Made by a program: the position numbers and the translations under genes
The notes under the pieces: generated by a model
Databases searched by the model: none
Told to the model about the DNA's origin: nothing
What the model saw: the letters and a program-made list of their open reading frames with translations, nothing else
Part shown: in pieces, positions 4,723 to 33,971 of the stretch
How the letters are laid out: each line of letters starts with the position of its first letter
Position numbering within the stretch: the first letter of the stretch is position 1
Assembly: GCA_026396875.1 (NCBI GenBank)
Contig: JAPLVY010000009.1
Span: forward strand, 1-51,801
DNA: 51,801 bases
Direction of reading: 5' to 3'
Source of the DNA: Candidatus Falkowiibacteriota bacterium
Lineage (GTDB): Bacteria; Patescibacteriota; Patescibacteriia; Patescibacteriales; UBA12465

Positions 4723-5889
4723 CTATTTATTTTTTTCATAATTGACGCTCCAGGCGCCAGAAAGTGGCTGTACCAAAGAACTAATGTTAGAAATCATTAC
4801 TGACTCATCGTTTTCAAAAAAACCATTATTACTCCAGTTATTAGTACCAAATACTGCAATTTGATCATCAACTATCAATAGGTGATGGTGTAAAAAAGAA
4901 TTTAGATTGGCATCGCCAGAGAGTTTGGCGGCCTCCAAATTTCTTTTTTGATCAGTTATTATTTCCAAATTCCCGAGGTGACGACTGACTTTTTGCTGGT
5001 TCATTAAAGGAAAAACCGAATCGGCGAGGGAATAGTTGGAATCATCGGCAATTATCTGCACTTCTTTGTTTGCGGAAATATCTACCAAAACCTGAGCTAA
5101 TGGTTTACTAGTAAAATTCCAGATCATTATTTTTATTCCTCTCTGAGCGCTCTTAATTAGTTCTTCCATGCGCCCCTTTAAACCATTGTGCGTTTCTGGC
5201 GTGAACCAAACTTCTAGAAAACCTTGAGGGTACTCCAGCCGAGTCATTAGACTGGAAATTCCGCCATTTAATTTATCGCGACCGCGCTCTCCTTTTAGTA
5301 AACGAGAAAATTCTTCACCAAAAATATTAATTATTTCTGGACGAGTGGTATCAAGTAAAAAGCATGGATCATATTTACCCTGCAAATAGGTAAAATTATA
5401 AGAACCAAAAAATAGTCTTCCAGTCTTCTCCCCCCGATCAACAATCATAAATTTGTGATGCATTGAGCCGCCCCCCGCGGAGAAATTGATGCGCTTGATA
5501 TTTTTGGGGAGATTTTCAAAAATCTTGTCATGCCCTGCCTTGTTCTTGTTGCCAAGCATAATTGTTACGGCCACTCCTCGATTAGCGGCGCGATAAATAG
5601 CCTCGCGAATTAAAATATTGTCCATTGAATAAACCGCTAACTCAATGCTCTTTTGGGAATCGTCAATTGCTTTAATAAGAATGGGGGCGAGATTGTCATC
5701 ACCCAAGTCATTATTGAAATATAATTTACCAGAAAAATCATCAGCAATAACAATAGTCCGATGATCTTGAGAATTTGTACCGTGAAGACCAACAAAGAAA
5801 AACCTAAAGAAAATAAAGACCAGGCACAGAGAGATAACTAGGGCCGTGATAGCAAAAATTAATCCTCTTTTTTTAGTACTTAATTTCAT
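4723..5889 (-). CDS. Membrane-anchored phospholipase-D-like (HKD) protein
   Basis: 388 residues. An N-terminal signal anchor (about 9-33) is followed by two PLD-like halves. The first HKD motif is intact (H144-x-K146-x4-D151, followed by GSYN). In the second, lysine is replaced (H334-x-H336-x4-D341, followed by GTNNWSNN). PLD-superfamily enzymes use one motif from each half for phosphodiester transfer, on lipids or nucleic acids. The K-to-H change makes activity uncertain. The topology suggests the catalytic part lies outside the membrane. Its start overlaps the ABC-like gene by 17 bp, and it is third in the reverse-transcriptase operon. The substrate is unknown. Confidence 0.85.
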   Translation of the reverse strand: MKLSTKKRGLIFAITALVISLCLVFIFFRFFFVGLHGTNSQDHRTIVIADDFSGKLYFNNDLGDDNLAPILIKAIDDSQKSIELAVYSMDNILIREAIYRAANRGVAVTIMLGNKNKAGHDKIFENLPKNIKRINFSAGGGSMHHKFMIVDRGEKTGRLFFGSYNFTYLQGKYDPCFLLDTTRPEIINIFGEEFSRLLKGERGRDKLNGGISSLMTRLEYPQGFLEVWFTPETHNGLKGRMEELIKSAQRGIKIMIWNFTSKPLAQVLVDISANKEVQIIADDSNYSLADSVFPLMNQQKVSRHLGNLEIITDQKRNLEAAKLSGDANLNSFLHHHLLIVDDQIAVFGTNNWSNNGFFENDESVMISNISSLVQPLSGAWSVNYEKNK

Positions 5890-7573
5890 ATTTTTGATAG
5901 TAAGTTAAATAGTTATTTTCTTTTCTAGAAAAGATAATAAATGTCGATTCCGGCAATGATTTCTCTAGCGTCGCTAGGGCGTCTTTAATCTCCTGGTACC
6001 CAAGATCTATCCAAAAATTATCAATTACAATTAATCTTGGTCTCCTTTTTAGACACCAAAGGGAAAATATCGCAAAGGCTGACTTTGGACTAGCAAGCGC
6101 GGCGGCAGCGCTGGCATTAAAATTATTATCTGGAGCGACCAGGGAAAAAAGTGATGGATTCAAAGAAAGAAGTTCTATGGTTTTTTCAATTTCAGAAAAA
6201 TTCATCTCCGCCCTATCTCTGCCGACAATTAATTCAAGCAGACTCTTCTCGGAATAAAATCCCGGATCAAAGAAACAGATGCCGTGTCCGAATCTCTGAA
6301 ATGACCGATAACTAAAACGACGACCATCAATTTTTATTCTTAAAGCCTTTGATTGAAAAGCACCCATTCCAGAAAGAGCCTTAGCTAGAGCACTTTTCCC
6401 AACGGATAAGTTGGAATAAAATAAATATTTTTCTCCAGGCGAAAAAGCTAAGTGACAATGACGCCAATAACTAGCGCCCTTGAAGAGCTTTAATTTCCGA
6501 CTGTAGAAATCTAGGCTATGATGAAAAGCCAATCTTTTCTCTCGCTGAGAAAACTTGGTTCGCTCAACAACTGAAAGAAATAGCCCCATCTTTCCTGGCC
6601 AAAAATAAAGACCGATGCGTAAGCTCTCATAAATCGCTCGCGAAAAATAAATTAGAAGGAAAAGCAGTAAAAATTTTCCACCCGAGCTAATTGAACCAAA
6701 ATCAGAGAAAAACTGCGCCGAGAAGAAATGAGAAAAGATCGAAACCACTAACAATAAGGCAAAAACTACCTTGGCGCAAAGTTTAATCCACAAATCTCTT
6801 CTAACCCTGAAGAACGAATCAAATTTTACCAGCCTATCAAATCGTCTCAGGGAATCATTCTCCCTATTCATAATTTTTAAAAAATATTTTTCCGTGCTTG
6901 AATCATCAATCTCCTCCATGATCCTAGAATAGAAAGTGACCTCTTGGGAAATATAATTTTTTGAAACCAAATACGAAAGAAAGGCAATAATTACCGAGGA
7001 AAAAATTAAAATCAAAATAATTAGAGACCAGTTTAACCCACTCCAGACAGACAAAATGGTAATAACCAATAAATTAATGAGCCAGCGTAATAGACCAAAA
7101 AAAGAATTACTAAATCCCATTGAAGCCAAAGGGAGTTGATAGGAGATCTTAGCGATCAAACCAGCTTTATTGTGATAATTTATTTTATCTAGCGGTTGAT
7201 TAATATAATTTTTAAAGATTCTTCTCCGAAGTTTGTTTGCAAAAAACACCCCAAGAGTTTTTTCCTGACGAATTGAAAAATAAGAATTAACAAAAAAGAC
7301 CAGCAATAACAAAACCAGGAACTGCCAAAAAAATGTTGCCAAAAAATACGTCTTCTGCCCCACCAATTGATTGCGGCTAAAAATTATCAAAATAGCCTCA
7401 ACTAATCCCTGCGAAAGCAAGAGAAAACCGAGAGCCACCAGGGAGAATCTCCGATTTCTGAAAAAATCGCGCAAAAAATTAAAGTGCAAATCGCTCAGTT
7501 CAATTTTTTGAAATTTACTGCGCGTTTGACGAGCCTGGCCGATTAACTTTATTTGTTTTCTAATTCCTTTCAT
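5873..7573 (-). CDS. ABC-exporter-like protein with degenerate ATPase motifs
   Basis: 566 residues laid out like a half-size exporter: about six membrane segments (43-65, 76-97, 160-178, 182-204, 265-285, 300-318) and a C-terminal nucleotide-binding-like domain (about 355-566). Each catalytic element is eroded. Walker A is SNLSVGKSA (387-395, first glycine lost). The signature LSGGQ is LASPKS (493-498). Walker B is LIVIDN (514-519, catalytic Glu to Asn). The switch histidine region reads IIFSRKE. It may bind nucleotide through GKS but probably does not hydrolyse it well. It overlaps the RT gene by 14 bp and the PLD gene by 17 bp, so translational coupling is likely. Confidence 0.75.
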   Translation of the reverse strand: MKGIRKQIKLIGQARQTRSKFQKIELSDLHFNFLRDFFRNRRFSLVALGFLLLSQGLVEAILIIFSRNQLVGQKTYFLATFFWQFLVLLLLVFFVNSYFSIRQEKTLGVFFANKLRRRIFKNYINQPLDKINYHNKAGLIAKISYQLPLASMGFSNSFFGLLRWLINLLVITILSVWSGLNWSLIILILIFSSVIIAFLSYLVSKNYISQEVTFYSRIMEEIDDSSTEKYFLKIMNRENDSLRRFDRLVKFDSFFRVRRDLWIKLCAKVVFALLLVVSIFSHFFSAQFFSDFGSISSGGKFLLLFLLIYFSRAIYESLRIGLYFWPGKMGLFLSVVERTKFSQREKRLAFHHSLDFYSRKLKLFKGASYWRHCHLAFSPGEKYLFYSNLSVGKSALAKALSGMGAFQSKALRIKIDGRRFSYRSFQRFGHGICFFDPGFYSEKSLLELIVGRDRAEMNFSEIEKTIELLSLNPSLFSLVAPDNNFNASAAAALASPKSAFAIFSLWCLKRRPRLIVIDNFWIDLGYQEIKDALATLEKSLPESTFIIFSRKENNYLTYYQKYEIKY

Positions 7574-8858
7574 AATGGAATTTTTTATAAAAATGGTAGA
7601 GGGAAAATATTCCCAGATGACCCAAGCGTTTTTCTAGCAGGCGGCGATTGCGTGGTGAGTAGTGTCCATAAAAAAATTTGGTCATGATTTGAAAGAATCT
7701 TTCCGAACAATCTCTGATTTGCTTCGAGTCATTAATTTGTGGCTTATCTTTAATAATCTTTTCAAAACGAAAGTTAAAATTATTTTTTTCCTCGATCATT
7801 ATTTTCCTTAGCAAATAGTCCTTACGCTTGTCCGGCAAATGCTTATAGGACAGGAGTTTTTTCCATTCCGTTTCAATCCGGCGTAAATAACCTTGCTCCA
7901 AGCTAATCAATCCACCCTCAAAACAATATCCCAAAAAGGAAAATTTTGACTTAGCGGGACCACAGTACAACTTATTTTCGTTGATTCTTAGTTTTCTAGC
8001 TAAAAGGTCAGCAGACATTTCTTTCTTTATTACTTCAAGCTTGTCATCATTTTGATCCAAGATTGCAATATCATCACCGACCCGCAAATAAAAAGGAACA
8101 AGTTTTTGGTATTTAAAATCCAGATCGCTCAAGTAAAAATTAGCGAACTCGGCAATCAGTGGCACCCCTTGAATCAGGCCGAATTGTGGCATCACCATCT
8201 TGCCGTCGCGGTAAGCACAATTAAAAATAAATAGCCGGAGCACCGCCAGAACCTTCTGATCGGAAAATATTTCTTCGAGCCGACCAGAAAGCAGCTGCCG
8301 ATCAATCAGGTCGGAATAATTTTCTAAATCAATAATCAAAGCATAATCTTGCGAAAAATCACGACGATAGCGATGCCCAAAATATTTCGCTGCCAGATAT
8401 GGAGGTTTGCCGGGACGGTAAGAAAATAAGCGATCAGAAAAATTTTTCTCAAATACCGGAAGAACTATCTGAAAAATCGCTTGAGCCTTTATTCTCTCTT
8501 TGAGACTATATATAAAAATTTCCCGATTTTTTTCGGGATTATTTTTTTTGGGTATTTTCACCAATAAGGCTGGAGAAATTTCTTTTTCGCTCACTAATTC
8601 CTCGCGAATTAGGAGAAGCAACTCTTCGGAACGCAAATCGTAATGCTCCAATAAAAGATTGTCTAAACCGTGGTAACTAGCACTCTTACCCTCAATGGTG
8701 AATTGCTCGACTATTTTCAAATAAGCCGCCCGCAGGTTAGCGTCAGAAATTATTTCGGAAAACATATTTTTCAAATTATCCTCAAGATATCTAACGGAAA
8801 ACCGATAAATATTGGTTAAATCCAACGAGGCGAAGGGTCGCAAGACCCTGAACCACAA
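7560..8858 (-). CDS. Reverse transcriptase (RVT_1), unassigned bacterial lineage
   Basis: 432 residues. RT motifs in order: KIPKKN (101-106) with SLKERIKAQAIFQIVLPVFE; SDRLFSYRPGKPPYLAA; motif A IIDLENYSDLIDR (D177); motif B QGVPLIAEFAN (230-240); motif C LRVGDDIAIL (D262, D263); motif D-like LRINENKLYCG; and FSFLGY (306-311). The catalytic aspartates are present, so polymerase activity is plausible. Motif C is VGDD rather than YADD, and motif B lacks the usual SP or the SQ of diversity-generating RTs. No endonuclease or maturase domain is evident in the last 110 residues. The frame starts at TTG 8858 with AAAGAG 7 nt upstream; ATG 8765 is an alternative. It is first gene of the RT-ABC-PLD run. 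Confidence 0.85.
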   Translation of the reverse strand: MWFRVLRPFASLDLTNIYRFSVRYLEDNLKNMFSEIISDANLRAAYLKIVEQFTIEGKSASYHGLDNLLLEHYDLRSEELLLLIREELVSEKEISPALLVKIPKKNNPEKNREIFIYSLKERIKAQAIFQIVLPVFEKNFSDRLFSYRPGKPPYLAAKYFGHRYRRDFSQDYALIIDLENYSDLIDRQLLSGRLEEIFSDQKVLAVLRLFIFNCAYRDGKMVMPQFGLIQGVPLIAEFANFYLSDLDFKYQKLVPFYLRVGDDIAILDQNDDKLEVIKKEMSADLLARKLRINENKLYCGPAKSKFSFLGYCFEGGLISLEQGYLRRIETEWKKLLSYKHLPDKRKDYLLRKIMIEEKNNFNFRFEKIIKDKPQINDSKQIRDCSERFFQIMTKFFYGHYSPRNRRLLEKRLGHLGIFSLYHFYKKFHYERN

Positions 8859-8879
8859 ACCATCACTCTTTAATTAACT

Positions 8880-8993
8880 GACATTAACAGTAATAAAAAA
8901 TCAAAATTTAATGGCTACTAATATCCCTCTTTCAAGGGTTTTGAGGATAATTATTAAGTATACTAGCGAACCAGTTTACTGCTTAATAGTATA
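8880..8993 (-). other. RT operon leader with nested inverted repeats
   Basis: This stretch, within the gene-free gap 8859-9126, contains TATTAAG (8952-8958) matched by CTTAATA (8982-8988), and TATACTA (8959-8965) matched by TAGTATA (8987-8993). The two pairs compete. A further imperfect hairpin pairs ATCCCTC with GAGGAT (about 8922-8948). The outer arms touch the predicted -10, so they could be an operator. Read as RNA they could form a structured leader, as reverse transcriptases such as retrons often use. Both readings are inference. Confidence 0.35.
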
Positions 8994-9016
8994 TAACAAA
9001 TAGTAATATTGGGCAA
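8988..9016 (-). promoter_or_regulatory. Predicted sigma-70 promoter of the RT operon
   Basis: On the minus strand, a -35 TTGCCC (9016-9011), a 17-bp spacer and a -10 TATACT (8993-8988). The matches to consensus are 4/6 and 5/6 with ideal spacing. It predicts a transcript start near 8981 and a leader of about 120 nt before the RT start. Confidence 0.5.
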
Positions 9017-9074
9017 TTTACTGAACAAAAGGGGTTGACAAAGAAATAATAGGCCCATCTTAGATTTTTTAAAA

Positions 9075-9104
9075 TAAAAAAGAGTCTTTTTTTAAAAAGA
9101 CTCC
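9075..9104 (-). terminator. Rho-independent terminator after the 67-residue ORF
   Basis: Minus strand: GAGTCTTTTT and AAAAAGACTC pair (9082-9091 with 9094-9103), followed by a T-rich tail. It separates the 67-residue ORF from the RT operon, so the latter needs its own promoter. Confidence 0.7.
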
Positions 9105-9126
9105 AGAAGATTGATACTAGCGGTTC

Positions 9127-9330
9127 CTATTTTTTCTCCTCATTTACCAAGGCTTTAAACCCGGCCTCAAAAAGCAGATCCCATCTCGGGTTCTGGCCCC
9201 AGCCCTTCGCTTTTCCTAGCTCGGTGAGGGCAAAATTCATGTTGCTTAATTTCTCTTCGCGTATTGTATTCAGAGCTTCATCCTTCTGACGATGCGGATT
9301 GATGATTAATACATAAGGTGGTTCATCCAT
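9127..9330 (-). CDS. Small hypothetical protein (67 residues)
   Basis: A short soluble protein rich in charged residues, with the central segment WGQNPRWDLLFEAGFKAL. No signal peptide or membrane segment. It sits between the tRNA-Gln gene and a good terminator, so it may be a monocistronic unit or the tail of the ftsX/tRNA transcript. I do not recognise the family. The frame is supported by its fit between the two flanking terminators, not by homology. Confidence 0.5.
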   Translation of the reverse strand: MDEPPYVLIINPHRQKDEALNTIREEKLSNMNFALTELGKAKGWGQNPRWDLLFEAGFKALVNEEKK

Positions 9331-16257: not shown

Positions 16258-18255
16258 TTAATTACTACTAGGAATCCTGGAGAAATCTATTTCTTCTCCT
16301 TCGCCAAACTCTTCGCCGGCAGATACGGATAGATTGCTAGAATTTGTTTTTGGTTCTTCTTTTATTTCCCTGCCCTTAAAATTTACTGGACGCAAATTGC
16401 TAAGACTAGAAAGAGACACTGGCTCAGGAGTATTGGCGGCTTTCTCGAACATTTCTTCAACATAATTTTCAGCCCGCTTCTCGGCTTCTTTCAATTTGGT
16501 AAGTTCTGCTTGTTTTAATTTTTGGCGGGCTTCAGTTTCAACTCTTTTTTCCTCTTTCTTAAGAGTTAGGCAATTCTGACAATACACAGGACGAACACCA
16601 TCCGGCTGAAAAGAAACGAAAGTCACTGCTCCACAATTACTACATTCGGTAGATATTTTTCCTGGTGGAATTCTATTGGGAGACGACACTGGCGTGGTAG
16701 CCAAAGTTGGCGCCGCAACAACAGCAACCCTGGGAGCTGCGACAACCGGACGCTGAATAACCGGCTTACTTGTCTGTTGACCAGCTGGCGCCTGATTGCT
16801 TTTTTCTTGCGAAACAGCTGGGTTAACCGCAGTTAAGCCTGGCGCTTGCATAGGGGGGTAGACTGGTGGCGTTCGCACTGAACTTGGAGGAATATAATTA
16901 TTTCTTGGTGGAAAATTTTGGTTACCCGGTTTCGTGAAAGATTTTTTCTCCTGCAATTCTTTTTCTTTGTCCTCCTCTTCGCTCTCATGCCATTTCATAA
17001 TTCTTTCCTCCACTAAAGCGCGAGGGGAGGAATACTTCTCACGCGAAACATCAATAATCTTCTGAGTGTTACCAGTTTTTTCCTCCACCCTGAGTGGTGG
17101 CAAGCCGCGGGCAGAAAATGGATTAGAGGTAATGCCATCAATCATTAACCTTAAGTACATTTCGTATTTTGGCAAATTAACGATGTCCTCCTCGGTGAAT
17201 GTTGGTGTAAACTCTTTGACTAAGTCCTCAGCATCGGTCGCACCAACCCGGAAGACAATCAATGTGCCGACGTTACCAAAAACTGCAGCCTTTACTGTGT
17301 CTCCTAATTGTTCGATATATTGATGGGCCATGATTAAATTTAAACGATATTTTCTGGCCTCCGAAAGAATGTTAGCAAAACTATCAGTAGAAAAGTTCTG
17401 AAATTCATCAATATAAAGATAAAAATCTTTACGTTCGCTTTCAGCGATATCTACCCTACTCATGGCCGCTAATTGAATTTTGGTAATCATCATTGCTCCC
17501 AATAAAGCGGAGTTGTCTTCACCAATTCTCCCTTTACTGAGATTCATGATTAAAATTTTTCCTTCATCCATTATTTTACGGATATCGATAGAAGATTTGA
17601 CTTGGCCAATAACATTACGCATCAAAGAACTAGATAAGAACTGACCAACCTTATTTTGAATTGGCGAAACGGCTTCGGAGGCGAATTTATCGGCATAACC
17701 GGCAAATTCTTTTTCCCAAAACGATTTAACCATCGGATCCTTGATATTTGTGACCACTTTCTTGCGATAAGTTTTATCAGAAAGCATACGTACCACTCCC
17801 AGAAGAGTAGAGCCCGGATAGTCTAAAATAGCTAAAATTGCATTACGCAAAATATACTCCAAGCGTGGCCCCCAAGAGTCAGCCCAAAGTTTTTTAAAAA
17901 CTCCAATCAAACCAGAGGCGACAAGATGTTGCAAGTGAGGCTCAACCTGTTCAACAACGTTAAAAGCAATTGGATAATCAATATCAGCAGGATTTAAATA
18001 GACCACATCATCAATTCGGTTTCTGGGAATAAATTCAATAATTTTCTCAGCCAAGTCTCCGTGAGGGTCAACTACCGCCACACCACGTCCAGCCCTAATG
18101 TCATCAATAATCATGTTCTCTAGGATCGTGGACTTACCCATTCCGGTTTTTCCAATCAAATACATATGACGACGACGATCGTCGGTCTTGATACCGAATT
18201 TTTTAAATTCGTTTCGGTAAGTTGTCTGTGCAAAAACTGCAATTTCACTATTCAT
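16258..18255 (-). CDS. Conjugation/T4SS-type ATPase with C-terminal zinc ribbon (TraG/VirD4-like)
   Basis: 665 residues. Walker A GKTGMGKST (35-43) near the N-terminus, AVVDPHGDLAEKI, and Walker B LYIDEFQNF with the downstream MAHQYIEQL typical of VirD4/TraD-like coupling ATPases. After residue 410 comes a charged and proline-rich linker, then a CSNC...CQNC zinc ribbon and a lysine/glutamate-rich helix. No N-terminal membrane helices are seen, unlike classical VirD4. Such proteins are common in CPR chromosomes, where they may drive DNA or pilus transport; the role here is unproven. It overlaps nothing and follows a small membrane protein by 4 bp. Confidence 0.82.
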   Translation of the reverse strand: MNSEIAVFAQTTYRNEFKKFGIKTDDRRRHMYLIGKTGMGKSTILENMIIDDIRAGRGVAVVDPHGDLAEKIIEFIPRNRIDDVVYLNPADIDYPIAFNVVEQVEPHLQHLVASGLIGVFKKLWADSWGPRLEYILRNAILAILDYPGSTLLGVVRMLSDKTYRKKVVTNIKDPMVKSFWEKEFAGYADKFASEAVSPIQNKVGQFLSSSLMRNVIGQVKSSIDIRKIMDEGKILIMNLSKGRIGEDNSALLGAMMITKIQLAAMSRVDIAESERKDFYLYIDEFQNFSTDSFANILSEARKYRLNLIMAHQYIEQLGDTVKAAVFGNVGTLIVFRVGATDAEDLVKEFTPTFTEEDIVNLPKYEMYLRLMIDGITSNPFSARGLPPLRVEEKTGNTQKIIDVSREKYSSPRALVEERIMKWHESEEEDKEKELQEKKSFTKPGNQNFPPRNNYIPPSSVRTPPVYPPMQAPGLTAVNPAVSQEKSNQAPAGQQTSKPVIQRPVVAAPRVAVVAAPTLATTPVSSPNRIPPGKISTECSNCGAVTFVSFQPDGVRPVYCQNCLTLKKEEKRVETEARQKLKQAELTKLKEAEKRAENYVEEMFEKAANTPEPVSLSSLSNLRPVNFKGREIKEEPKTNSSNLSVSAGEEFGEGEEIDFSRIPSSN

Positions 18256-29591: not shown

Positions 29592-31448
29592 CTAAAGAAT
29601 ATAATTCTTAACTTTTTCCTTTAACTTTGCTATTGCATTTTGCCTGTCTTGGATTTCTTTCTCCTCTTTATCAATTTCAACATTCAACTCATTTACCTTT
29701 TTCATAATACTTAATTGCTCTGAATATTCTGGATACGGCACTTTATATTTTTTAAAATTCCTTTGATTTATTGCTTTTTTAGCTGCACCTCTTGCCAAGG
29801 CTTTAATTATCTCATCACGCATTAACACGAAATAGTTATTATAATAATTCAGATCTATTTTATTATTATACTTTTTACTTGGCGTAAGAATGAAACATAA
29901 ATCACTCGCAATAAATTTTCCATTAATATAATGGGTTCTGCCTAAAGACCCTGATGCACCCATTGCAAATATTATTGCTTCACACTCATGACTGAATTCA
30001 TTGTGGGTTTTCCATTCCTCAGAAGCAGTAATAAAAGTAAATTCACCCGGAACATTTTTAGAACTTTGCACAGTGCCTTTCTCAACCTCAAAAAGCTCGC
30101 CTAATTCAACTGACTTATAACTGTCATGAATTGACTCCTTTTTATAACTTATTCTATTTAATGAAATTCCGTCATTTTCTAAAACTTCTTTTTTGTCTAG
30201 ATAAAAAGCTTTCTCCGAATTAACTTTTTTATTTGAAATAGCTAGTGCAAGTATTAATTTCTTAGCCTCTGGTAAGTCATTTTCTTTAATTGGATTTCTA
30301 TTCCTACCCAAATCAAAACCATCGTGCCTAACCTCATAATGAAGTATTGAGTCAGTTTTTATCTTCCTGTCAAAAAATATTATACTGGTTTTAATGCTTC
30401 CACTATACGGATTAAATGTTCCAACAGGTAATGATACAATAGCGTACAAACCATTCTCTATTAGCATTTTCCTTATTTTTGTGAAATCTTTTGTATAATT
30501 TTCCAATATACCTTCGGGAATTACAACTCCACCCTTACCATGGATGCTCAAATGCTCCAATATATAATCAACGAATAACGCCTCTGCCTTGCCTGATTGC
30601 ACGGCAAATCTTTTGTGTGGAACTATGCCACCATTTGGTGTCATAAATGGAGGATTGGCAAGAATCACATCAAAAGTTTCATCCCAACGTTTTTCGCTTG
30701 TTAAGGTATCATATTCGTGAATTTTCGGCTGTGGAAATCCATGCAAATACATATTAACAAGTGCCAGCTTGACCATGTCAGGGGAAATATCATATCCAAC
30801 AAGATTGCTCATAAGCCTTAATTTTTCATCGGGAGTAAGAGCTATTTCCATATTTTCTTTTAAAATATGCTTATAAGCTGAAATCAAAAAGCCTGCTGTT
30901 CCACAAGCTGGGTCAAGTATTGTCTCATTTTTTTTCGGATCTACAACATCCACCACAAAATCAATAATATGCCTTGGTGTTCTAAATTGTCCAGCATCAC
31001 CTTGGCTTCCTAAAATAGAAAGCAAATACTCAAACGCATTTCCCAAATTTTCACTATTCTCATAAGTAAACTCATTTATTTCCTTTAAGAACAGCATGAG
31101 TGTACGCGCATCACGATATGGTAAAAATGCACCTTTAAAAATATCTCTAAACAATTGTGGAATATGCGGATTCTTCGACATATTCGAAATTGCCTCATCA
31201 TAAAGATTTAGGCGTTCCTGCCCAGAGAGCTTATTGTCTAGTAATTTTGTCCATGAATACTGACTAAAATTATCGGCAAAAAACTTTGCCTCTCCACCCA
31301 ACTCTTCCGACTCTTTGTCCATGTCATCCATAAACTTATAGACGAGTGCAGTTGTAATTTGCTCGACTTGTGCCTTTGGATCCGGAACCTTACCCACAAG
31401 TATTTGACGAGCTGAATCAATTTTTCGTTTTGTTGTTTGATCAAGCAT
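29592..31448 (-). CDS. Type I restriction-modification HsdM fused to a single target-recognition domain
   Basis: 618 residues. The N-terminal HsdM-like region contains the SAM-binding motif DPACGTAGF (179-187) and catalytic NPPF (265-268) for N6-adenine methylation. From about residue 446 a half-HsdS follows: one TRD (VELGELFEVEKGTVQSS through GASGSLGRTHYI) and the conserved coiled coil (QLSIMKKVNELNVEI to the end). Normal HsdS has two TRDs; a single TRD suggests dimerisation and a symmetric recognition site. hsdR follows upstream in the same run, 12 bp away. Confidence 0.85.
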   Translation of the reverse strand: MLDQTTKRKIDSARQILVGKVPDPKAQVEQITTALVYKFMDDMDKESEELGGEAKFFADNFSQYSWTKLLDNKLSGQERLNLYDEAISNMSKNPHIPQLFRDIFKGAFLPYRDARTLMLFLKEINEFTYENSENLGNAFEYLLSILGSQGDAGQFRTPRHIIDFVVDVVDPKKNETILDPACGTAGFLISAYKHILKENMEIALTPDEKLRLMSNLVGYDISPDMVKLALVNMYLHGFPQPKIHEYDTLTSEKRWDETFDVILANPPFMTPNGGIVPHKRFAVQSGKAEALFVDYILEHLSIHGKGGVVIPEGILENYTKDFTKIRKMLIENGLYAIVSLPVGTFNPYSGSIKTSIIFFDRKIKTDSILHYEVRHDGFDLGRNRNPIKENDLPEAKKLILALAISNKKVNSEKAFYLDKKEVLENDGISLNRISYKKESIHDSYKSVELGELFEVEKGTVQSSKNVPGEFTFITASEEWKTHNEFSHECEAIIFAMGASGSLGRTHYINGKFIASDLCFILTPSKKYNNKIDLNYYNNYFVLMRDEIIKALARGAAKKAINQRNFKKYKVPYPEYSEQLSIMKKVNELNVEIDKEEKEIQDRQNAIAKLKEKVKNYIL

Positions 31449-31460
31449 AATAGTTATTAA

Positions 31461-33971
31461 TTATCTCATGTAGACATTTACAGGAACATAGTCTTTTACA
31501 TATTCAGGAATAGTTTCTCGCCAACCATTTAACTCCTTAAATTCAGACATTGTAAATCCAGCATAAACATTTAATTCTGCAAACTGTTTATTATTAATAA
31601 TATCTCTAAATTTTTCATCGGTAACATAAGCTTTTAAATAATTCTTAATGTGTGGGACATATTTACTCTCCGGCTTATAAATTGAGATAAATTTTTCACA
31701 TTCCTCCTCCAACTTCTCATCTTTCGTTTTGAATACATCAATAATCCCAAATGCACGTTCCAGAAACTCACGCCATGAAATTCGGCGATCAAGGTTTTCA
31801 CTCTTTCGTATTTTTTCAAGATTAATAAATAATTGAGGCTTATCTTCATACTTATCGCGCATTATCTGTATTGCCCTATCCCACTGCTCATTTTCAACTG
31901 CTACTTTAACTTCTTCATCTTTCTGCAATTCCTCTCTAGCTTTTTCAAATAATTTCCGATCAACTTTCATGCCCTCAACGCCAACCTTAACCTCAGTTAA
32001 TGTTTTAACTTTATCGGGATTAAAAACTTCTATTTCTGATACATCGACACCGTCAACGCCTCCGCCACCATTTCCTTTTTGCTTAATAGGCAGGTGTAAT
32101 ACCTCATCATAATCAAATTTCTCCTCAAAATATTCGCAATTTGCGAAGAAGTCAAAAAATTTGAAACTATCTTTTTGAGCATTATGCCTCTCTCCATATT
32201 CATCCGTATATTCAAATGTAAATTTTCTAGTCCCTCTTCCCTTAATTTGAATGAAGTCTGTTGGTGAAAATACTGGACGCATCAAAGCAAGATTTAAAAT
32301 ATCCTGACAATCATAACCCGTAGTCATCATGCCGACAGTTACGCAAACTCTAGTTTTGCTTGATTTATAATTTTCTAAAAATTTTGTATGTCCGTTTAAA
32401 TTATTGTTAGCAAAATTAATTGTAAATTGCTGACTATCGGAGATATTCGAAGTAATTTGAACTGCAAAATCTGAATTATATTTATTTGGCCACAATTGTG
32501 TAGCAATTTGATTTAATGTTTGAGCTATTTTCGAAGCATGTCTCTGACTTACACAAAAAATTATACCCTTACCAATCTCACCGCTAATAGGATCTTTTAG
32601 CGCATTCTCAATAAACGTCTGACAAAATACAAGATTTGTTTTTTCCGAAAAAAACTTTTTCTCAAAATCTTTTTGAAAAAATGTCTCTTCCCCTTCTGCA
32701 CCATCTTCATCCTCCATCATTACCGCATAGCCCTTCTCCGATAGTAGCTCGGCAGTAATATCGGTACGTGCATCTGCAACAACTGGGTTAATTAAAAAAC
32801 CCTCACGTACTCCTTCCAATAAACTAAAACGAAATGTAGGCTCACCCTTTTTACAACCAAAAGTTATATAAGTATCCAGCAATTGCCGTCTTTCCCATGC
32901 ACGTGGATCTCTTTGAGATAACTTTTGAGGATCAACATTTTTTAAATAATCCTTAGGCGTTGCCGTCAAACCAAGTTTATATCCTACAAAATATTCAAAA
33001 ACTGCACGTGAATTCCCTCCAATAGCCCTATGTGATTCATCTGCAATGATTAAATCGAAATCAGTTGGTGAAAAAAGTTTTTTATATTTATCCTGTGCTG
33101 AAAGACTTTGCACTGTTGAAATAACAATTTCTGCCTTTTTCCAATCATCTCGATTTTGTTTATAAATAACCGCCGTAAAATCATTACTTAAATACCTAAC
33201 AAAGTTTTTATGTGCTTGATCCTCCAACTCTAATCGATCAACTAGAAATAAAATCCTCTTAGCATTTCCGGTTCGTAAAAATAGCTTGATAACGGCCGCG
33301 GAAATCAATGTCTTGCCCGTGCCAGTTGCCATCTCAAAAAGGAAACGATCATTGCCCGCCTCCGCAGATTTCTGAAGAGCATGAACCGCTCTCAATTGAT
33401 AAGACCTCAATATGCGTAAATTTTCATCCCAAAGATATTGTTCTCGAGTGTCTTCCTTAATATAGCGTGGATCCTCCTTGAAATTAGGGTTTTGCGTTAA
33501 GGCAATATAATCATCGCCAACATTTTCATCTGCCAAACGCTGATTATCAGGCTTAAAACCAAGCCTATGCTTAAGAGATTCTTGAGTTGGAAATTCAGTT
33601 ATAACTTCAGGGTCACCCCTTTCTAGATCCCAAAAATAATGAAGATTTCCATTTGAAAGAATAACAAAACGAACATTTTCTGTGTGGGCATACTTTCTTG
33701 CTTGCTCCTTTCCGTCTAGAGGATTTTTATCCTCCTTCTTTGCTTCTAAGACAACCAAAGGAAACCCATTTTCATCAAGTAGCAAAAAATCAATAAATCC
33801 TTTTTTTGTTGACTCAAAATCTTCGCCAAATGCATCAATTTCTTTTTTTGTAATCTTTATATTTGGCTCCAATGAAATATTTGCCTCACCTTTTTCATCA
33901 TCAAAAAAACGCCAACCAGATGATTGAAGTAAGTTATTGATTTTAATTCTCGCTTTAGCTTCTTTTTGCAT
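31461..33971 (-). CDS. Type I restriction enzyme HsdR (endonuclease/translocase)
   Basis: 836 residues. N-terminal PD-(D/E)XK nuclease (D61, E76-A-K78), then an SF2 motor with Walker A ATGTGKT (215-221), DESH box (311-314), GLTATP and the QIKGRGTRKF arginine-finger motif, and an HsdR-type C-terminal helical domain. It cuts unmodified DNA after ATP-driven translocation, with the neighbouring HsdM-TRD fusion giving specificity. All catalytic motifs look intact, so the system is probably active. Confidence 0.93.
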   Translation of the reverse strand: MQKEAKARIKINNLLQSSGWRFFDDEKGEANISLEPNIKITKKEIDAFGEDFESTKKGFIDFLLLDENGFPLVVLEAKKEDKNPLDGKEQARKYAHTENVRFVILSNGNLHYFWDLERGDPEVITEFPTQESLKHRLGFKPDNQRLADENVGDDYIALTQNPNFKEDPRYIKEDTREQYLWDENLRILRSYQLRAVHALQKSAEAGNDRFLFEMATGTGKTLISAAVIKLFLRTGNAKRILFLVDRLELEDQAHKNFVRYLSNDFTAVIYKQNRDDWKKAEIVISTVQSLSAQDKYKKLFSPTDFDLIIADESHRAIGGNSRAVFEYFVGYKLGLTATPKDYLKNVDPQKLSQRDPRAWERRQLLDTYITFGCKKGEPTFRFSLLEGVREGFLINPVVADARTDITAELLSEKGYAVMMEDEDGAEGEETFFQKDFEKKFFSEKTNLVFCQTFIENALKDPISGEIGKGIIFCVSQRHASKIAQTLNQIATQLWPNKYNSDFAVQITSNISDSQQFTINFANNNLNGHTKFLENYKSSKTRVCVTVGMMTTGYDCQDILNLALMRPVFSPTDFIQIKGRGTRKFTFEYTDEYGERHNAQKDSFKFFDFFANCEYFEEKFDYDEVLHLPIKQKGNGGGGVDGVDVSEIEVFNPDKVKTLTEVKVGVEGMKVDRKLFEKAREELQKDEEVKVAVENEQWDRAIQIMRDKYEDKPQLFINLEKIRKSENLDRRISWREFLERAFGIIDVFKTKDEKLEEECEKFISIYKPESKYVPHIKNYLKAYVTDEKFRDIINNKQFAELNVYAGFTMSEFKELNGWRETIPEYVKDYVPVNVYMR

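Follow-up and report, generated by a model that had tools for sequence, protein, structure and literature searches.

Reverse transcriptases (RTs) of the group II type bind structured RNA, and VTG and NAxxH motifs are the hallmarks of retron RTs. In retrons and in the DRT2, DRT3, DRT9 and DRT10 systems, the RNA adjacent to the RT gene acts as partner or template of the enzyme in phage defence (PMC13213688, PMC12632851). DRT10 joins an ncRNA and an RT to a SLATT membrane protein, and its cDNA has been proposed to control this membrane effector (PMC12632851); 82% of UG17 RTs adjoin SLATT_5 (PMC8934634). Here we describe a locus of Candidatus Falkowbacteria (Patescibacteria) to which DRT10 is the closest system in logic, as both combine a structured ncRNA upstream, an RT and a membrane effector within a single unit and show tight co-evolution of the parts. 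However, the present locus has a pseudo-ABC protein and a PLD-like protein and no SLATT protein, its order (ncRNA-RT-ABC-PLD) is different, its RT is not a UG17 enzyme by score, and the steric gate of this RT is open.

The window, i.e., the whole 51,801-nucleotide stretch of DNA analysed, belongs to a 767-kb genome that is 89% complete. Three genes on its minus strand encode an RT-like polymerase (7560-8765; RVT_1, 3.9e-10), a pseudo-ABC exporter of 566 aa (5873-7573; ABC_membrane, 9e-4, below the cut-off) and a PLD-like protein of 388 aa (4723-5889; PLDc_2, 1.4e-29). An earlier note on this DNA had described three overlapping genes of these kinds, and they lie where it placed them, in families that profile searches confirm, with overlaps of 14 bp (RT stop at 7560, ABC start at 7573) and 17 bp (ABC stop at 5873, PLD start at 5889). 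Its RT start, a TTG at 8858, was abandoned: the RT most likely begins at the ATG at 8765, giving 401 aa, because close relatives start there and most of 8766-8858, including the TTG, is structured RNA. The trio of genes thus stood, but the count of parts did not, since a conserved ncRNA of 179 nt directly upstream (8774-8952, minus strand), identified by fold z, covariation and an RNA model (R1), had been overlooked. This four-part unit of ncRNA, RT, ABC and PLD is almost certainly real. The promoter and terminator of the earlier note have counterparts in a pattern scan of the minus strand. A promoter-like TTGCCC-17-TATACT (9016-8988; 9/12) lies about 36 nt 5' of the ncRNA and is weak, because four such pattern matches were found against 1.2 expected; a terminator-like stem followed by a T run (9104-9081; one found against 0.4 expected) lies between the unit and an upstream 67-aa ORF.

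The trio was searched for in genomes of the same family, order, class and phylum and in one scan of 84,980 species genomes, which gave 16 full loci with the same gene order in 14 genomes. Six further loci came from the RT family search of the source's own bacterial family, with RTs 40-66% identical and all in the order RT-ABC-PLD. This recurrence in 16 full loci puts the arrangement far beyond chance, and it dispels the concern, raised in the earlier note, that the trio might be confined to one strain; the expected conserved trio in unrelated loci was also found, as the neighbourhoods differ from locus to locus. Besides the full loci, there are a near copy cut by its contig (L039) and an RT at a contig end (L066). 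No member of the RT, ABC or PLD family was found alone in these searches apart from cases at contig ends, and lone RTs in particular, which had been named as a reason for doubt, occur only where a contig ends. Among 381 genomes of the class, the RT profile marks eight and the ABC and PLD profiles nine each, i.e., the same eight genomes carry all three genes and the ninth (G010) has a contig that stops inside the ABC gene; its reading as ABC plus PLD without an RT was rejected for this reason. Presence is patchy (8 of 381 class genomes and 2 of 380 phylum genomes), and two genomes, G002 and G006, have two deeply diverged copies each. RT identity among members averages 41% with a minimum of 25%, and a wide gap (E about 1e-25) separates the family from the next RTs. 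Pairwise distances of RT, ABC and PLD correlate with r of 0.93, 0.91 and 0.94 (Mantel p 1e-4; none of 10,000 permutations reached these values). This correlation and their co-presence across genomes show that the three genes travel and evolve together.

Several of the trio neighbourhoods hold housekeeping, pilin or competence genes, and they are not defence islands. Two loci carry unexpected taxonomic labels, 'Omnitrophota' (L037) and 'Flavobacteriaceae' (L039); as the latter sits on a contig of 4 kb and nearly duplicates L038, misbinning is likely and no spread beyond Patescibacteria is claimed. A viral origin suggested by one IMG/VR match (L066) was rejected, since this RT, placed at the end of its contig, has giant surface proteins as neighbours and is more likely host DNA. 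Elsewhere in the window, a type IV coupling protein/TraD-like ATPase is encoded at 16258-18255, within a block that also stands beside the trio in G006 (L017). Positions 22463-51572 form a prophage-like region with integrase, amidase, phage capsid and portal matches in Pfam, which also contains a type I restriction HsdM/S fusion (29592-31448) and an HsdR-like gene (31461-33971).

The predicted RT structure (pLDDT 85) resembles group II intron RTs along the entire chain, with a Z score of 31.1 against 6ar3 (rmsd 3.7, 373 residues aligned), followed by G2L4 (28.7), DGR (27.5) and DRT9 (24.5) RTs. Group II intron RT/maturases (GsI-IIC, E. rectale) are also nearest among PDB sequences. Unlike these enzymes, the trio RT scores only 104.5 bits against the NCBIfam model of group II intron RT/maturases (cut-off 300), has Ser in place of the gate residue Phe143 and forms a separate clade. 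The earlier note had asked for a tree with group II, DGR, retron, DRT/UG and Abi references; in the tree obtained, whose references came from group II/RT-Cas1 and DGR RTs, all 17 members formed a single clade (100/100) with a long branch, separate from both reference groups, so the distinction holds for these groups. A DGR identity was rejected, as the clade is separate and no Avd-like neighbour occurs in the loci; the [ILV]GxxxSQ motif is also missing at its place. UG26 was likewise rejected as home family, since its model gives 92-131 bits, a span that overlaps with the scores of a group II RT and of other RTs from the class. The RT was placed in none of the known families tested, and the fear that it might belong to a well-known family of different function was not borne out. 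Some other RTs were met on the way. The same family and order commonly contain DGR-type RTs accompanied by a small Avd-like protein (L023, 9659-10711; L025, 5698-6729; L024, 2468-3475), and none of them is a member of the trio family. Two further Patescibacteria RTs (L095, L097) combine a YGDD motif C with a normal Phe gate and make up a clade of their own, and a 477-aa RT with an FADD motif on a very long branch (L074, 1042-2472, in G069) has no clear family and is possibly an unplaced RT.

The catalytic Asp residues D146, D231 and D232 are invariant across the family. The steric gate lies five residues after the motif A Asp and is Ser151 in the window protein, a position set on F143 of GsI-IIC without a gap by HMM alignment (counted by hand). 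It is non-aromatic in all 17 members (Ser in 14, Ala in two, Thr in one), whereas Phe or Tyr is present in all 26 other RTs compared. Motif C reads R[VI]GDD (RVGDD in the window protein) versus [YF]xDD in the others, YGDD alone being not unusual among the RTs compared. The sugar gate of RTs is known from F155 of MMLV, and a group II F143A mutant has been made at the analogous position (PMC8857657). As the natural Leu gate of mycobacterial DinB2 permits rNTP use (PMC4176160), rNTP use by the trio RT is a fair prediction, and it is possible that the product may contain ribonucleotides, since the steric gate appears open from the sequence.

The ncRNA, of about 180 nt, ends 8 nt short of the RT start and is composed of a closing helix P1 (8941-8952 with 8774-8785), a hairpin P2, an arm P3 with an apical hairpin, a variable hairpin, a conserved CCTCGTTGGATTTAA stretch and a hairpin P5. 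In most loci the 200 nt 5' of the RT fold better than shuffles (z -3.3 to -7.3) and adjoining windows mostly do not; for 8774-8952 the z is -5.04, with no shuffle equally good. An alignment of eight sequences supports 30 pairs in four helices with 97.5% of cells paired, falling to 40-47% in a partner-sliding control, and compensatory changes occur at 14 of the 30 pairs (26 cells). R1, built from these eight sequences, gives the window ncRNA 169 bits as the single strong match in its genome, and it also finds L020, which was left out of the model (56 bits, E 7e-8), and L021 (28 bits, E 0.014), in both cases directly before the RT. A second model (R2) finds L062 alone, weakly. In total the ncRNA was recognised in 13 of 16 testable loci, L037 being outside the count for want of upstream sequence; the three without a recognised copy are L038, L060 and L065.

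A pseudoknot joins the P2/P3 joint to the apical loop of P3 (8881-8924, minus strand; ATATTA at 8919-8924 with TAATGT at 8881-8886). In a 12-sequence alignment it is paired in all 12 relatives, with compensatory change at four of its six pairs, and the partners covary as GATATTA/TAATATC, GGTATTA/TAATACC, GGCATTA/TAATGCC, GATGTTA/TAACATC and GATATCA/TGATATC; in L062, GTTATCA/TGATAAC was seen by inspection. A motif-free search of single sequences was matched by shuffles too, and the evidence for the pseudoknot lies in the alignment counts. In the interval 8500-9300, Rfam has no family matching the ncRNA (chance-level matches stayed below gathering scores) and no match to group II intron RNA. The conserved RNA lies entirely upstream of the RT gene, unlike intron RNA, which encloses its gene.

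The position of P1 allows more than one role for this RNA. Its 3' arm holds a likely Shine-Dalgarno sequence, GAGG, and ends 6-12 nt from the start codon in eight close loci, and since P1 thus overlies the likely ribosome-binding site, the RNA may regulate translation besides serving the RT, or could be a leader only. In the latter case, a riboswitch-like or autoregulatory element would control how the three genes are translated, with the RT working independently of it, and pseudoknotted multi-branch leaders are indeed common in bacteria. This explanation is judged unlikely: P1 reaches 20-28 bp in L020, L021, L059, L061 and L062, a high stability for an ordinary switch; the distance from its end to the ATG is 37 nt in L020; the RNA turned up solely with RTs of the trio family; and most structured RNAs known to lie beside an RT gene are partners of that RT.

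The pairing of the two ends of the ncRNA by P1 agrees with the a1/a2 feature of retrons. Together with its place directly before the RT and with effector-like genes in the operon, as in Ec86, Ec78 and Eco8, this invites the strict retron or DRT interpretation, in which the RT reverse-transcribes a segment of the ncRNA and the resulting DNA (msDNA-like or repeat cDNA) holds the membrane effector inactive or activates it. On the other hand, VTG and NAxxH are absent in 17 of 17 RTs, the best retron folds reach a Z of about 18 versus 31 for group II RTs, and the UG17 and UG26 scores of about 100 bits do not exceed what unrelated RTs reach (for UG17, 71-91 bits against 87-172 bits for unrelated group II and DGR RTs). 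With the steric gate lost as well, a strict retron or DRT is rather doubtful. A functional complex of RT and ncRNA in the broader sense would be probable.

The ABC-like protein has an exporter-type membrane domain and a nucleotide-binding domain, and MsbA and TM287/288 are among the best fold matches of its model, which is of moderate confidence (pLDDT 73). Membrane domain and overall fold are shared with such exporters; the catalytic Glu, signature motif and H-loop His are not. The earlier note had regarded all ATPase motifs as degraded, which holds for the catalytic Glu (Asn in 13 of 16 relatives, Glu in none), the LSGGQ signature, the Q-loop Gln and the H-loop His, all features of an active exporter, but not for Walker A, whose GK[ST] is kept in 13 of 16 (SVGKS in the window protein), or for the Walker B Asp, present in 16 of 16. 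Going by these residues, ATP binding by the pseudo-ABC is possible, whereas hydrolysis is not expected. The gene is split by a frameshift in two of 16 loci (L021, L059), which might be taken as a sign of a decaying or selfish element with no cellular role. Such decay is very improbable, as catalytic residues are invariant at 25-66% identity, frames are intact in most loci and no mobile genes are attached.

The PLD-like protein consists of one N-terminal membrane helix (predicted inside-to-outside) and tandem PLD domains, the first of which carries the superfamily motif HxKx4D and the second HxHx4D in all 16 proteins. The leading end of the hydrophobic helix is positively charged in 16 of 16, so that, by the positive-inside rule, the enzyme domains should face outwards. 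Proteins of L062, L064 and L038 have a C-terminus about 90 aa longer, with a similar extra stretch. Among solved proteins, mitochondrial cardiolipin hydrolase and NucT are its closest relatives, with Nuc also near, and the substrate could therefore be either lipid or nucleic acid. All share the HKD fold, whereas tandem domains in one chain, the membrane helix and the second-domain HxHx4D distinguish the trio protein.

This kinship is compatible with uptake or salvage of nucleic acids, in which the outward PLD would cut an external strand, the ABC protein would span the membrane and the polymerase inside would copy or convert the strand taken in, perhaps in connection with type IV pili and competence; in H. 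pylori, NucT functions in purine salvage and in transformation (PMC5714352). In four of 14 placed loci the RT has a pilin gene within 3 kb, against about 0.8 expected by a rough count, and single loci adjoin ComEC-like, DprA/ComM-like or PilN/PilO-like genes, named by sequence reading. However, the pilin link is post hoc, weak and missing at most loci, ordinary Patescibacteria have uptake genes without the unit, the ABC protein is devoid of hydrolysis residues, and the ncRNA is left unexplained, which makes uptake quite unlikely.

The preferred reading is a four-part unit, transcribed together, in which an ncRNA-RT complex steers a membrane effector pair, probably against phages; we hold it with about even confidence, and the same applies to a role in cell defence as such. 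We infer that the RT would hold the pseudoknotted ncRNA as a ribonucleoprotein, and that upon a trigger, most likely phage infection, it would make a nucleic-acid product or change state. By the logic of DRT10, the complex should then signal via the pseudo-ABC, probably ATP-bound without hydrolysis and linking the cytosolic RT to the PLD outside the membrane, and the PLD might attack membrane lipid or envelope nucleic acid, by which infection would be stopped. Trio conservation, co-presence, co-divergence, the covarying ncRNA and the invariant RT and PLD residues speak for this reading. Accessory defence genes tend to show diverged copies and patchy presence, and the defence role is favoured because the trio resembles this pattern, with its patchy presence and the two genomes that each hold two diverged copies. 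Against defence count the neighbourhoods, which are not defence islands, and the predicted outward-facing PLD, which is unusual for an abortive-infection nuclease; the three loci where the ncRNA was unrecognised, the two of 16 with a broken ABC frame and the position of P1, by which the RNA could be a leader only, count against the reading as a whole. More speculatively, and with considerable doubt, the RT, its sugar gate lost, might be an RNA-guided enzyme that polymerises RNA or mixed RNA-DNA and is linked across the membrane, through a non-hydrolysing ABC protein, to the outward PLD. We know of no cell with a polymerase-to-envelope signalling machine of such kind.

The architecture is shared with RT-ncRNA-effector systems, and the full feature set of any named family is absent from the trio. 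No PADLOC model claims the RT family as a member, and there is none at all for the ABC protein, which likewise counts against the preferred reading. No RT + ABC + PLD system is described in the literature searched, whose coverage is incomplete, and as HMM, Rfam and literature searches name no such system, its description in the earlier note as a candidate undescribed system stands. Should the polymerase turn out to make RNA, the unit would have to be regarded as a new kind of system, and the open steric gate raises the biochemical question of whether a bacterial RT-fold enzyme can make RNA. The strict linkage of the four parts offers a clean model of communication between an RT-RNA complex and a membrane protein, a question still unsolved for DRT10 and for the other DRTs that have membrane partners. 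If the reading is right, these findings would add a new lineage of RTs, a new family of pseudoknotted RNAs and a pair of membrane effectors, and would mean that tiny-genome Patescibacteria keep an ncRNA-RT-effector system of their own.
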